This document shows positions 37,192 through 53,571 of a stretch of DNA of 64,000 nt, one piece after another. Within the stretch, counting starts at the first letter, position 1. Each line of letters opens with the position of its first letter. The stretch lies in NCBI RefSeq assembly GCF_003627095.1, contig NZ_CP032627.1, positions 2,480,001-2,544,000 on the forward strand, read 5' to 3'. This DNA comes from Lactococcus allomyrinae. GTDB lineage: Bacteria; Bacillota; Bacilli; Lactobacillales; Streptococcaceae. A program made the position numbers and the translations under genes. The notes under the pieces are model-generated. The model made no database searches, was not told the origin of the DNA, and was given only the letters and a program-made list of their open reading frames with translations.

Positions 37192-37221
37192 GGTTTTGAG
37201 AGGTGGCATTATTTGCCTTAT

Positions 37222-37300
37222 AACACATTCCTACGCTGGCATTATCCAGATCAGGTCAGATGGTATTTCTCACTCGCTGTTACGAGACCCATTGTGCAAA
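37222..37300 (-). promoter_or_regulatory. TPP riboswitch (THI element)
   Basis: Minus strand contains CTGATCTGGATAATGCCAGC followed by GTAGGAA, the nearly invariant 3' half of the THI box, and GAGAAATACC in the 5' half. CACA/TGTG ends close P1. Located upstream of thiT, it would lower ThiT synthesis when thiamine pyrophosphate is plentiful. Confidence 0.92.
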
Positions 37301-37369
37301 AATATTTTACAGCTTTAAGTTTAGCATAATTTTGGTAGAAAGTCATTTTAGGGGGATTAAAAGTAAAAG

Positions 37370-48978: not shown

Positions 48979-49026
48979 AGACTTGTAAAATACTTTTGAC
49001 AAACAAATCATTTGCAAAAAATAAAG

Positions 49027-49447
49027 AAGTTTGAAATGAAGCCGTGACTTCATGTGTTGGCTGTAATTAGATCGAGTGACTCTCACATCTTAATCAACCG
49101 AGTTCGGAAGGCTAGAAACTTGTGAAAAAGATGAAATTTTGAACCTACGCTGGCGCAGAACCAAAAATTTCCCTATTTTTCACAGTTTCTGAGCAAACCT
49201 TCCTCACATCTTAAATTGAGTTTGGGGCGCTAAAAGCTAGGCGATTAGATAAAATGGAGCTTGTGTTTCGTACAGAACCACATTTTCCTAAGTCACTGTG
49301 CTTTTGGACGAGTACTCCTTACCTCTTACAATTGAGTTCGGAGCGCTTGAAATTAGTGAAAATAGACAACTTCCAGAACCGTGCTTTCGCACGAACCTGA
49401 AATTTTCTAATTTTCATAATTTCAGGACGAGCGCTCCTCACATCTTA
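49027..49447 (+). repeat. Array of about 114-nt hairpin repeats in the fhu leader
   Basis: Full copies at 49100-49213, 49218-49328 and 49334-49447, plus a degenerate copy ending at 49092. Each starts GAGTTCGG (or GAGTTTGG), ends CTCACATCTTA (or a variant), and folds end to end; the outer stem pairs GGAAGG/CCTTCC or GAGCGCT/AGCGCTC. The apex is a small stem flanked by GAACC on both sides. The last copy ends about 6 nt before the ribosome site of the XRE gene. Same family as 52382-52613. Confidence 0.75.
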
Positions 49448-49465
49448 TTTTGAAAGGAAATAGTA

Positions 49466-49759
49466 ATGGAAAATAAAATACGTGAATTACGTCGTTTGCA
49501 CCATCTTTCACAAGAAGATATTGCGCATATTGCACACGTCTCGCGTCAGACGATTAATGCGATTGAGAATGATAAATACGATCCTGAGTTAATGCTGGCT
49601 TTTAAGCTTGCCGATACGTTGGGAACAACGGTTGATGAGCTTTTCAATTACAAACCAGCTATAGTAAAAAGGAAAGAAAACGATGTATTTTGGTGCGAAA
49701 AATATCAATGTGTGCTATGGAAAAGAGCAGGTGTTGAAAAACATCACGTTGTCGATTGA
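49466..49759 (+). CDS. XRE-family small regulator
   Basis: 97 aa. HTH: IRELRRLHHLSQEDIAHIAH, VSRQTINAIENDKYDPELML, of the YozG-type small repressors. Residues after about 68 read across the start of the ATPase gene in another frame (77-bp overlap), which is unusual. First gene of the iron-transport operon, so a likely local regulator. GAAAGGAAAT ribosome site. Confidence 0.75.
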   Translation: MENKIRELRRLHHLSQEDIAHIAHVSRQTINAIENDKYDPELMLAFKLADTLGTTVDELFNYKPAIVKRKENDVFWCEKYQCVLWKRAGVEKHHVVD

Positions 49760-50462
49760 AAAGGGGAAAACAACGGCGATTATCGGAATCAATGGTTCTG
49801 GAAAATCAACACTTTTAAAAGCTTTAGGACGTTTAATTAAGTCTGACGGAGAAGTTATTTTTAATGACAGACCTCTGTCAGCACTGACAAATCTTGAAAT
49901 TGCGCGAATTTTATCACTTTTACCTCAGTCAGCAATGGCGCCAGCAGATATTACCGTTTATGAGCTGGTCAGTTTGGGACGATTTCCCCATCAAAGACTG
50001 ATGCAACAGCACTTATCAAAAGATGATGAAGCTTTTGTTGAGCAAATTATGCGAGAAACAAATGTATGGGAAATGCGTAATAGTAAGGTGTCAAGCCTAT
50101 CAGGAGGGCAACGTCAGCGGGTATTTATTACGATGATTTTGGTGCAAGACAGTGAAATTATTTTGCTCGATGAACCAACAACTTATCTTGATTTGGTTCA
50201 TCAACTTGATATTTTGCGTTTGCTCAAAGAATTTGCGACAAAGCGAAAAAAAACGGTGGTCTATGTGATTCATGACTTGAACCATGCCGCACGTTTTGCT
50301 GATAATCTAGTGCTTGTTAAAGAAGGAAAAGTCGTTGCCGAGGGGTCTGTTGAAGAACTTTTCACAGAAAGTTCGCTTAAAGATTGTTTTGGTCTGGATG
50401 TGACATTAGGGTGTGATACATTTACTAAAAGTTTGATGATTACAGGGGTGAAAAATGCCTAG
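49683..50462 (+). CDS. fhuC: Iron/siderophore ABC transporter ATPase
   Basis: 259 aa. FecE/FhuC family: Walker A GINGSGKST, LPQSAMAPADITVYELVSLG, signature LSGGQRQRV, Walker B IILLDEPTTYLD, H-loop VIHDLNH. Energises uptake of ferric siderophores or haem through the two permeases that follow. Overlaps both neighbours. The siderophore type cannot be told from the ATPase. Confidence 0.85.
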   Translation: MYFGAKNINVCYGKEQVLKNITLSIEKGKTTAIIGINGSGKSTLLKALGRLIKSDGEVIFNDRPLSALTNLEIARILSLLPQSAMAPADITVYELVSLGRFPHQRLMQQHLSKDDEAFVEQIMRETNVWEMRNSKVSSLSGGQRQRVFITMILVQDSEIILLDEPTTYLDLVHQLDILRLLKEFATKRKKTVVYVIHDLNHAARFADNLVLVKEGKVVAEGSVEELFTESSLKDCFGLDVTLGCDTFTKSLMITGVKNA

Positions 50463-51405
50463 GAGACGCTTTGCAATGCTTTTTTTTACCCTTGTTTTTT
50501 TCTTGCTTATCTTATCTGTACTTTATCTAATGTTAGGTGCAAAAAATTATCCTTTGTCAGCGGTGTTACAAAATAAAATTGTCTTACAGCTCCGTCTGCC
50601 AAGACTTTTGAGCCTCTATCTCGTCGGATTTCTACTCTCCACGAGTGGTTTTCTAGTCCAAATCATGACACGAAACCCGCTTGCTGAAATGTCAACCCTA
50701 GGGATTTCAGGAGGTGCAAGTTTTGCCTTGTCGCTATTGTTGACCTTCGGATTGTCAACGAATGATGGGATTTCAGTTATTATTTCATCTGTTGGTGCTT
50801 TTCTTGCTTTGTCAGTTGTCATGCTGCTGACAGCGAGAACTCATTTTCAGCCTTTAAAAGTCGTTTTAGTTGGGACATCAGTTGGATTATTTGCGACGAG
50901 TTTGGCAAGTTCAATGACCTTCGCAAGCCATAATACGCAAGCCTATTTTTTATGGATTGTAGGTTCTTTTTCTGGCATTACTGACACGAAAGTGATTTTG
51001 ATGACAGTTGTCAGTTGTATTTTTCTTATTGTTCTTTTTCTTTTTTCAAATCGGATCAAGCTCCTCTCTTTTGGAGACGAGATGGCGACCTCTTTGGGCG
51101 TATCGGTCAATCAAGTCCGCTTTGCAATTATGATTTTGGTTGCTCTAGCAGCTGGTGCTACGATTGCATCAGTAGGTGTGATTAGCTTCGTTGGATTGAT
51201 TGCACCGCATATTGTCAAACCTTTTGCACGAACGAATTTTTGGCAAAATGTGATTCTGTCAGTGCTGACAGGAATGATATTATTAGTTTTAGCTGACCTT
51301 GCAGCAAGAAATTTGTTCAAGCCCTATGAATTTCCTGCGGGAAGCTTGACGATGTTGCTTGGTGCACCATTTTTCCTCTGGATTATCGCAAAGGAGGCAA
51401 AATGA
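50455..51405 (+). CDS. fhuB: Iron ABC transporter permease 1 (FecCD family)
   Basis: 316 aa with about nine membrane helices. FecCD signatures: LRLPRLLSLYLVGFLLSTSG, TRNPLAEMSTLGISGGASFA, GVISFVGLIAPHIVK. Overlaps fhuC and fhuG by a few bases. Forms the translocation channel with the next gene product. Confidence 0.87.
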   Translation: MPRRRFAMLFFTLVFFLLILSVLYLMLGAKNYPLSAVLQNKIVLQLRLPRLLSLYLVGFLLSTSGFLVQIMTRNPLAEMSTLGISGGASFALSLLLTFGLSTNDGISVIISSVGAFLALSVVMLLTARTHFQPLKVVLVGTSVGLFATSLASSMTFASHNTQAYFLWIVGSFSGITDTKVILMTVVSCIFLIVLFLFSNRIKLLSFGDEMATSLGVSVNQVRFAIMILVALAAGATIASVGVISFVGLIAPHIVKPFARTNFWQNVILSVLTGMILLVLADLAARNLFKPYEFPAGSLTMLLGAPFFLWIIAKEAK

Positions 51406-52340
51406 AAAAGAAATTTATTCTTTTATTTTCAATCCTTTTTATCATTGCAATCGTTGACCTGACACAGTTTTCCACGAATATGCAAATGCTCTCGATTTTG
51501 ATTCCCAATTTTCGTCTGCCACGCCTGATTATCGTTTTAGCTGCAGGAATGGCACTCTCAATCGCTGGATTTATTATCCAAACTGTTGCTGAAAATCCAC
51601 TTGCAGACAGTGGAACGATAGGGATTACATCAGGTGCAAGTGCGGGTAGCGTCGCATTTTTACTCGTTGCAGACCATTTTAATCTCACGGGTTTTTGGAA
51701 TTTTTCTTATCCTATTTTTGCATTGTTGGGCGCAATCATTGCGTTTGGTCTAATTTACTTTTTTGCACTCAAGAAAAATGTAAGTTCGGTTCGTGTACTA
51801 TTGACAGGGATTGCGATTACAGCATTTTTTCAAGCAATGATTACGCTTGCGCAATTATCTGTTAATAGTTTTGATTTCCAAAAAGTTGCGGTCTGGTTAT
51901 CAGGTGATGTCTGGCAAACAGATACGAGCTATCTCTTAGTTTGTCTAGTTTTACTGGTCATTGCACTTGTTTTTTTACCTTTTTCAATGAATAAACTCGA
52001 AATTATATCGCTTGGCGAAGAAATGGCGACAACTTTGGGAATAGATATTCAAAAGACGAAGACACAACTTTATTTTATTGCGCTTTTATTTGCTGCTGTG
52101 GGTGTCTTACTTGTCGGTGGACTTGCATTTGTTGGTCTAATTGCACCACATATTGCACGTGAAATCGTTGGTTTCAAATCACGTCGCAGGCTTGCTGCAA
52201 CGGCTCTAAGTGGAATGATTATCTTAGTATTTGCTGATATTATTTCGCAACTTGTAATTGCGCCATCAAGTCTTCCTTTGGGCTTCGTTGTTGCCTTCAT
52301 CGGAGCGCCTTACTATATTTATCTCATCCAAAAAGTTTAA
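51402..52340 (+). CDS. fhuG: Iron ABC transporter permease 2 (FecCD family)
   Basis: 312 aa, paralogous to the preceding permease: FRLPRLIIVLAAGMALSIAG, ENPLADSGTIGITSGASAGS, GLAFVGLIAPHIAREI. ATGA overlap upstream. Followed by a small imperfect hairpin (52339-52368) and then two hairpin repeats rather than directly by the binding-protein gene. Confidence 0.87.
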   Translation: MKKKFILLFSILFIIAIVDLTQFSTNMQMLSILIPNFRLPRLIIVLAAGMALSIAGFIIQTVAENPLADSGTIGITSGASAGSVAFLLVADHFNLTGFWNFSYPIFALLGAIIAFGLIYFFALKKNVSSVRVLLTGIAITAFFQAMITLAQLSVNSFDFQKVAVWLSGDVWQTDTSYLLVCLVLLVIALVFLPFSMNKLEIISLGEEMATTLGIDIQKTKTQLYFIALLFAAVGVLLVGGLAFVGLIAPHIAREIVGFKSRRRLAATALSGMIILVFADIISQLVIAPSSLPLGFVVAFIGAPYYIYLIQKV

Positions 52341-52381
52341 GAAATTAATTTGTAAACGCAAATTTCTTATAAAAAATAACT

Positions 52382-52613
52382 GAGTTCGTCCTCCCTGAAA
52401 GGTATGAAAAAAGATAAAGCTGTGAACCTGTCTTCGACAGAACCTCTAGCTTTCCTATTTTTCAACCTTTCAGAGCAGTCGGACTTATATCTTATAACTG
52501 AGTTCGGTGCGCTTAAAATTAGTGAAAATAGATAAATGCCAGAACTGTGTTTCCGCACAAACCTGAAATTTTCTAATTTTCATAATTTCAGGGCGAGCAC
52601 CCCTCACATCTTA
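52382..52613 (+). repeat. Two hairpin repeats in the fhuD leader
   Basis: Copies at 52382-52494 and 52500-52613, same family as 49027-49447. Apical stems differ but still pair (CTGTC/GACAG in the first, TGTG/CGCA in the second), with GAACC or AAACC boxes beside them. The second copy ends 5 nt before the TAGGAGG ribosome site of the binding-protein gene. Confidence 0.75.
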
Positions 52614-52629
52614 TATTTAGGAGGTAATT

Positions 52630-53571
52630 TTGAAGAAATTACTCACAACGATAGTCGCTGCAGGAGCCTTGCTTACTTTGGCTGCTTGCTCAACCAATTC
52701 ATCAGCTAAAAACTCAAAATCGGCTGATAAGACAGTTACTTTTCATGCCTTAAATGGTGATATTAAAGTCCCAGCAAATCCGAAACGTGTTGCTGTTCAA
52801 AATTACCCAGATGAAGTTGCATCTCTTGGAGGGAATGTTGTAGGTACAGACTCTTGGGCTTTTCCAAATCCATATTTGACAAAGAATCAAAAGAAAAATA
52901 TGGTTGATTTAGGTGCTCCAAAGTTCAATCTTGAAAAATTGATTGAGCAAAAACCAGACCTTATCATCACTGTGGATAAAGACCAAGTTGCGGATTATCA
53001 AAAGATTGCACCCACTGTGCTTGTGAATTATCAAAAACTTTCAAGTATGAATGAGTCTTTGGACTATTTTGCTAAATTGCTCAACCGCAAAGATGAAGAA
53101 AAAACTTTCCTCAAAAATTTCAAAAAAGCAGCGGATATACAGAAATCAAAATTGGAAAAAGCAGGCGTTACGCCATCTAAAAATACTATTTCCCTTCTTG
53201 AACTTCAAGGGGATAAAATCTATGCTTTTGGTGATAACTTTGCACGTGGAGGGCAAACCTTGACGACAGGTTTAGGATTTAAGCAGTCAGCCAAAATGGC
53301 AGAACTTTCAAAGGGAATAGGCTATGCTGAGGTCAATGCAGAAAGCTTGAAGGACTTTGATGCAGATTATATCTTTGTTGATTTCGCAGCGGTAGATAAA
53401 GCACAATTTACAGCATTGGAAAATAATCCAAGTTGGAAAAATCTTAAAGCGGTTAAAGAAGGTCACGTTGTGACAATGGATTATAACAAAGTTTATTTCT
53501 TTGCTGGTCCAACAGCGACTAAAAAAGAGCTTCCACTTTATACGGATGCTATCATCAAGGCTACAAAATAA
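52630..53571 (+). CDS. fhuD: Iron-siderophore binding lipoprotein
   Basis: 313 aa, TTG start with TAGGAGG upstream. Lipoprotein signal LLTLAACSTN with Cys20. Class III binding-protein pattern: PKRVAVQNYPDEVASLGGNV, EKLIEQKPDLIITV, FGDNFARGGQTLTTGLGF, and HVVTMDYNKVYFFAGPTA at the end. Delivers iron complexes to FhuBG-like permeases. Separate leader suggests independent expression tuning. Confidence 0.87.
   Translation: MKKLLTTIVAAGALLTLAACSTNSSAKNSKSADKTVTFHALNGDIKVPANPKRVAVQNYPDEVASLGGNVVGTDSWAFPNPYLTKNQKKNMVDLGAPKFNLEKLIEQKPDLIITVDKDQVADYQKIAPTVLVNYQKLSSMNESLDYFAKLLNRKDEEKTFLKNFKKAADIQKSKLEKAGVTPSKNTISLLELQGDKIYAFGDNFARGGQTLTTGLGFKQSAKMAELSKGIGYAEVNAESLKDFDADYIFVDFAAVDKAQFTALENNPSWKNLKAVKEGHVVTMDYNKVYFFAGPTATKKELPLYTDAIIKATK

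Follow-up and report, generated by a model that had tools for sequence, protein, structure and literature searches.

A dispersed family of hairpin repeats at gene start signals in Lactobacillales, with copies between Shine-Dalgarno sequence and start codon

Introduction

REP and TnpA-REP palindromes are 20-40 bp long, extragenic, and present in many copies, and in individual phage mRNAs, for example those of T4 genes 38 and 25, a hairpin draws the Shine-Dalgarno sequence (SD) close to the AUG. The repeats described here were noticed in a 64,000-nt stretch of Lactococcus allomyrinae (NZ_CP032627.1, positions 2,480,001 to 2,544,000; hereafter the window), where hairpin units precede two genes of an iron-type ABC transporter operon. 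They resemble REP in being multi-copy extragenic palindromes, but the units are some three to five times longer; and they resemble the T4 hairpins in placing structure between SD and start codon, which shortens the effective spacing, but the T4 hairpins are single and short, whereas a dispersed element of about 100-300 nt is found here before many chromosomal genes.

Further points of comparison are the pneumococcal BOX repeats and RepSU1 of Streptococcus suis. RepSU1 is described as the A1C1 size class of BOX-type repeats in S. suis and was found with boxC models, and BOX is reported to be over-represented between convergent genes (PMC3049150). BOX and RepSU1 are, like the present family, small, interspersed, and tightly folded, with no clear functional class of neighbours; the two outer BOX modules of about 50 nt with optional inserts resemble our units of about 105 nt and long copies of about 160 nt; but where BOX is said to favour the gaps between convergent genes, the present family is mostly sense-oriented and abuts an SD or a -10 box. 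RUP, SPRITE, and miniature inverted-repeat transposable elements (MITEs) are alike in length, hairpin form, and scatter; unlike them, the present family has a strong strand and position bias, pairing that is kept in place, and no visible target duplication.

We consider it probable that these units belong to a mobile, signal-sparing family of self-folding hairpin repeats, and that ribosomes can bridge the closed hairpin. Repeats of about 105-115 nt, interspersed and for the most part in sense orientation, would spread between intergenic sites of Lactobacillales genomes, and would also grow and shrink as tandem arrays; copies would be retained where their ends spare signals, that is, i) just 5′ of an SD, ii) just 5′ of an extended -10 box, or iii) between SD and start codon, where the hairpin would hold both at their normal distance and the ribosome would bridge it. 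The units of the iron operon would then be leader hairpins of the same sort rather than a sensor of iron.

Results

The sequence-only reading of the window had proposed a covariance model built from the five window copies and a search of lactococcal genomes. This model, R1, has 99 matches at E<=0.1 in its own genome, a count that takes in the five training copies (blastn with a single unit lists 46). Within the genus, 10 of 18 genomes have matches, own included, with 0 to 85 per genome at E<=1e-4. The element is scattered over the genome, with 98 of the 99 own matches falling within 64 fetched stretches, and distant copies are 94, 93, and 92% identical to window unit A3. Across the family, R1 matches occur in 49 of 97 genomes and 8 of 10 genera, own included (E-values are rough), and two genomes of one other genus carry 46 and 50. 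The core pattern is found in at least 120 stretches of named records, belonging among the matches listed to Enterococcus, Streptococcus, Lactococcus, Alkalibacterium, Atopococcus, and unclassified Bacillota; the named-genome results given here cover 80 of these stretches, in which R1 has 116 matches. From relatives within the genus, 60 stretches were fetched, higher scores first (20 from G005 and 40 from eight other genomes). One viral contig has the core pattern in two stretches as well.

Copies are placed at gene start signals far more often than random sites are. Unit strand is that of the next downstream open reading frame (ORF) in 81 of 98 own matches, opposed in 14, and without a downstream ORF in 3, as judged by a crude ORF caller and omitting one match, a reverse-strand twin at 352357-352468. 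An SD-like string lies within 16 nt after 24 of the 73 own array ends and TATAAT directly after 23, while the means at random sites in these loci are 4.07 and 0.29, respectively, with maxima of 11 and 3 in 500 runs. Among 84 named-genome arrays, 33 have an SD and start codon within 60 nt downstream, 9 lie between SD and ATG, and 1 stands antisense before an SD.

Three slots can be distinguished. In slot A, to which both window arrays belong, the tail ACATCTTA is followed by SD and start codon. In slot B the tail CACATCTTG is followed by nTATAAT (TATACT in one case), and at 10 own loci the ATG lies 13-14 nt past the unit, so that a transcript from that box would be leaderless. Element-free orthologues of five slot B loci, which have no R1 match there, keep TGnTATAAT-N6/7-ATG in 8 of 8 sequences; the promoter is therefore native and the element sits immediately 5′ of it. 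In slot A′ the order is SD (mostly GAAAGGAATT), unit, a few nt, and ATG.

Several side observations concern these positions. The own genome has 59 exact TGnTATAAT-N6-ATG sites (for example G000:C1:2568395-2568412) against none for the reversed control, 7 of them directly following a repeat unit; such sites would mark many candidate leaderless genes. Antisense copies stand before the SD of the opposite gene six times (four in G013 and one each in G008 and G017), and an antisense copy directly follows a stop codon in eight streptococcal loci (L233, L248, L260, L267, L268, L274, L279, and L283), where we take the preceding gene to be rpsG from its C-terminal residues.

Slot A′ is filled at five own loci, before trpD-like, cas1, mannosylglycerate-hydrolase-like, dioxygenase-like, and amidase genes (L047, L050, L057, L080, and L081; L037 and L088 were excluded). 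By alignment all five are also filled in G005, the trpD site being only partly visible, and R1 confirms four of them there (L157, L161, L169, and L182). Further cases occur in G005, G008, and streptococci, and the genes with a hairpin between SD and start include cas1, metS, dnaJ, parC, alaS, and prfA; metS and the streptococcal names are presumed identities, assigned from N-terminal sequence. With the hairpin omitted, the SD-ATG distance is 5-13 nt with a median of 8 in 21 automatically found cases (a set that keeps one doubtful row, L168, and comes from a search admitting sums of 2-15), and 201 of 251 contiguous SD-ATG pairs in the same sequences lie at 5-9 nt.

Judged by eye in 15 Streptococcus genomes, the order SD-hairpin-ATG is found at dnaJ in 13 and at parC in 11, one of the latter being a short remnant hairpin, and in both genes the hairpins are of several different sequences. 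The dnaJ gene of G096 has an unrelated small hairpin in the same slot; among these 15 genomes, no hairpin lies between SD and ATG in G046 dnaJ and in four parC regions. Of 37 rows, the artefact L001 and 8 in which the SD-like string lay within the element were removed; the 28 clean SD-ATG intervals that remain all fold well (z -2.2 to -7.4). The simplest reading would be that a hairpin, provided it is closed, can stand between SD and AUG regardless of its sequence, being either tolerated there or put to use. The idea that the element had inserted between a native SD and its ATG finds no support at trpD, where neither the element nor AGAAAGGAATT is present in G007 and G016; the trpD SD may have travelled with the element or arisen later.

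Pairing within the units is under selection. RNAalifold pairs 34 columns of the five window copies, 15 with a kept double change. For the family we used a structure-blind MAFFT alignment (A4) of 64 of 96 own-genome matches, truncated, long, low-scoring, and identical ones having been excluded. When the fold of the window copies is imposed on A4, 80.8% of cells pair (shuffles: 66.5%), and both sides change in 33 of 39 pairs. Covariation scores 0.355, compared to 0.144 in shuffles (none of 500 as high, a control that kinship of the copies can inflate) and at most 0.151 for versions of the structure slid along the alignment. RNAalifold alone predicts only 16 pairs on A4, 13 with kept double changes. 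The apical stem was earlier described as changing while staying paired; family-wide, pairing is poorest in the apical helix (56% of cells, where the alignment is gappy).

Orthologous copies were compared between G000 and G005, where 44 locus pairs gave 21 usable unit pairs from 15 loci. These show 20 double changes that keep pairing against 5.1 expected (none of 500 as many) and 61 single changes that break it against 90.0 expected (none of 500 as few). Taken over all pairs the signal is firm, and it thins out among the closest ones; together with the A4 score it upholds the proposal that compensatory changes mark a selected structure, and the RNA form is presumably the selected entity. Covarying structure is observed at a conserved position before orthologous genes. 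The near-constant parts are an internal loop, AGATAAA opposite TTTCCTA, and the tail, which in lactococci is ACATCTTA or ACATCTTG; the arms vary yet pair. Terminal inverted repeats are present: the unit ends pair, GAGT with ACATC, which leaves only TTA/TTG free on the 3′ side.

The own genome has many arrays of 2-3 units at a period of about 116-120 nt, and whole-unit gain and loss or presence and absence is seen at orthologous sites (L041/L162, L037/L164, and L058/L179), the first two differing by whole units between sister species. As read from the sequences, the purA site is filled in G016, empty in G012, and internally deleted in G007. In the purA leaders of G001 and G010 (L209 and L210) the place ahead of the SD that the repeat takes in a relative is held by GGATAGT..ACTATCC, a small hairpin unrelated to it. 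A -10-like sequence flanks some copies, often with a different variable base on the two sides; TTGnTATAAT as a target duplication of the -10 type was dropped for this reason, although the base agrees in most G011 arrays. A six-unit R1 array with a 122-nt period in Enterococcus ureasiticus (L333), several of its units near-identical, suggests recent tandem amplification. Long copies of 156-185 nt carry additional apical sequence. By eye, CTACGCTGTC-like and GCACTAAAGTGC-like stretches recur in the apical parts of L055, L060, L088, L166, L167, and L170, which looks as though another interspersed family had settled inside this one.

In the window itself, five full units of 111-114 nt form two arrays, three units preceding the XRE-type gene and two the gene for the binding protein (Table 1), as the sequence-only reading had it. 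Each unit is one long hairpin, with z-scores against the shuffle mean of -4.1, -1.7, -5.7, -6.4, and -3.9 for A1, A2, A3, B1, and B2, respectively, A2 being weak (10 of 200 shuffles fold equally well). Of a proposed sixth, degenerate copy only a 3′ remnant stands, since the match is limited to the last 20 or so nt and the 76 nt around it (49020-49095) fold no better than shuffles (z +0.3). Of the five units, three (A1, A3, and B1) keep both of the GAACC boxes that had been said to be nearly constant; the boxes read GAGCT/GAACC in A2 and GAACT/AAACC in B2. Both arrays do adjoin an SD, and the suggested distance of about 5-6 nt becomes 5 nt for each.

Table 1. Hairpin units, ribosome-binding signals, and genes of the iron operon (window positions)
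Feature	Position	Strand	Basis
3′ remnant of degenerate unit	49073..49092	+	Sequence match; surrounding 76 nt without better-than-shuffle fold
Unit A1	49100..49213	+	Fold; covariance model, 105.8 bits (training sequence)
Unit A2	49218..49329 (model match ends 49328)	+	Fold; 95.1 bits (training sequence)
Unit A3	49334..49447	+	Fold; 123.1 bits (training sequence); 5 nt before SD AAAGGA
SD of XRE-type regulator gene	49453..49458	+	Sequence reading
XRE-type regulator ORF	49466..49759	+	Helix-turn-helix antitoxin/repressor models, all below curated cut-offs
Iron-siderophore-type ABC ATPase (FecE/FhuC-like)	49683..50462	+	Models below curated cut-offs
Iron-siderophore-type permease (FhuB-like)	50455..51405	+	Models below curated cut-offs
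Second iron-siderophore-type permease (FhuG position)	51402..52340	+	Models below curated cut-offs
Unit B1	52382..52494	+	Fold; 106.6 bits (training sequence)
Unit B2	52500..52613	+	Fold; 121.9 bits (training sequence); 5 nt before SD AGGAGG
SD of binding-protein gene	52619..52624	+	Sequence reading
Iron-type substrate-binding protein (FhuD position), TTG start	52630..53571	+	Models below curated cut-offs

No Rfam family reaches its gathering score on any unit of the window or of 14 related loci, in keeping with the earlier remark that no named riboswitch of this shape came to notice, and a riboswitch was rejected on this ground; a terminator was rejected because the unit 3′ ends, on reading the sequences, have no T-run. 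The sole Rfam match of the window at gathering score is a TPP riboswitch at 37211-37302 (-).

Twenty downstream or operon proteins, 5 of them from the window, were scanned. Among the 15 others, methionyl aminopeptidase, NusA, proline and tyrosine tRNA ligases, RuvB, RpiA, diphosphomevalonate decarboxylase, TsaE, DNA polymerase IV, and Cas1 score above curated cut-offs, while amidase-, P-type-ATPase-, mannosylglycerate-hydrolase-, dioxygenase-, and TrpD-like proteins fall below. The genes preceded by the element include nusA, tyrS, proS, ruvB, rpiA, tsaE, mvaD, dinB, and cas1, and a link to iron was rejected on this functional mix.

Discussion

The earlier suggestion that the element serves iron sensing or uptake does not survive its scatter before unrelated genes. 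A leader RNA by which the fhu operon responds to iron or haem might seem to be favoured by the presence of two arrays within one iron-type ABC operon, both array positions being kept in G005 (with 4 and 1 units compared to 3 and 2); but the same element precedes genes of unrelated function, unit number varies between species, and no Rfam riboswitch matches a unit of the loci scanned, so that this explanation is already largely refuted and we regard it as extremely improbable. The sequence-only reading had also taken scatter without regard to gene context as a sign of a passive, MITE-like repeat; this is borne out by half, in that the scatter is regardless of gene function but has a strong position and strand bias at start signals.

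The remaining rivals each account for part of the evidence. Passive MITE-like debris, inserting anywhere and surviving where genes are spared, with a fold that serves transposition only, would be consistent with match counts that range from 0 to 85 among genomes of the genus at E<=1e-4 and reach 99 in the own genome at E<=0.1, and with scatter, tandem arrays, antisense copies, and other sequence nested inside long copies; we nevertheless think it unlikely, because pairing is kept in orthologous copies, because 13 of 15 Streptococcus genomes have the dnaJ slot filled and 11 the parC slot, and because such slots recur in several genera. Leader hairpins acting in mRNA stability or processing, for instance as sites for a double-strand RNase, with SD proximity a mere consequence, would fit long stable leader hairpins lying 5′ of an SD but leave unexplained the copies directly upstream of -10 boxes, which that promoter would not transcribe; such a role seems to us distinctly improbable. 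That the copies are promoter elements at the DNA level, supplying the TG of an extended -10 box and a TTGACA-like -35 while all other copies are by-products, draws on the 23 of 73 own array ends that run into TATAAT and on TTGACG-, TTGACA-, or TTGCAA-like hexamers seen by eye about 18 nt upstream in the 3′ arm; against it, element-free orthologues of five loci have TGnTATAAT 6-7 nt before ATG in 8 of 8 sequences, and SD-adjacent copies lack the box, so we give it very little credence.

Our preference for a mobile, signal-sparing hairpin family must in turn be weighed against several observations that tell against it. By the rules used, 26 of 73 own array ends and 41 of 84 named-genome array ends abut neither signal. 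The range of sums admitted by the spacing search makes the near-normal SD-ATG distances less surprising. Unpaired exterior nucleotides in the 28 clean intervals are no fewer than in shuffles; folding alone is therefore no proof of bridging, and the exterior count was discarded as such a proof. The own trpD-like frame behind its SD-ATG copy (L047:2169-2459) is only 97 aa long, and so the gene may be broken. Among the 14 orthologous unit pairs of at least 85% identity, kept double changes number 3 against 0.8 expected (12 of 500 as many) and breaking single changes 25 against 35.5 (none of 500 as few); among the 9 pairs of at least 90% identity the figures are 1 against 0.5 and 17 against 20.3 (22 of 500 as few). 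Because the compensation signal is so thin among close pairs, part of it may reflect older exchange between subfamilies. Finally, the filled and empty sites compared show no clean target duplication and include no strain-level fresh insertion, and we call the family mobile from its scatter and from presence and absence at orthologous sites; copies would spread by transposition.

Is the family a known one? Pneumococcal BOX identity was rejected on the result at three BOX loci of G098, defined by the BOX primer sequence, which was found in 1 of 97 family genomes: R1, run unfiltered, reaches at best 11.8 bits there (E 0.24). RepSU1, as compared by description, may be a member, since it is an A1C1 size class in S. 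suis, where the present family also occurs among the matches listed; its discovery through boxC models speaks somewhat against membership. We met no description of the repeat family in a partial search of the literature. As judged from sequence, the family would seem to work like a BOX-type small interspersed repeat, and bridging of the SD-start gap would be its novel part.

We wish to be more cautious about what ribosomes do at filled SD-ATG slots than about the family itself. That a mobile hairpin family makes discontinuous ribosome-binding sites in Lactobacillales, with ribosomes bridging, across a stem that can be removed or replaced, an SD-AUG gap of about 100-300 nt at genes such as dnaJ, parC, alaS, prfA, and metS, is a tentative proposal, a little less likely than not. 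If it is true, hairpin folding could offer a means of adjusting translation, and the element may owe its spread to entering SD-ATG, -10, or pre-SD slots without killing expression; the filled and empty orthologues provide natural matched pairs for testing bridging. If bridging is routine in streptococcal and lactococcal housekeeping genes, start prediction, leader design, and the SD-AUG spacing rule would all be missing a class of sites; and the family would be an unusual one among repeats, in that its preferred slots are the expression signals themselves.

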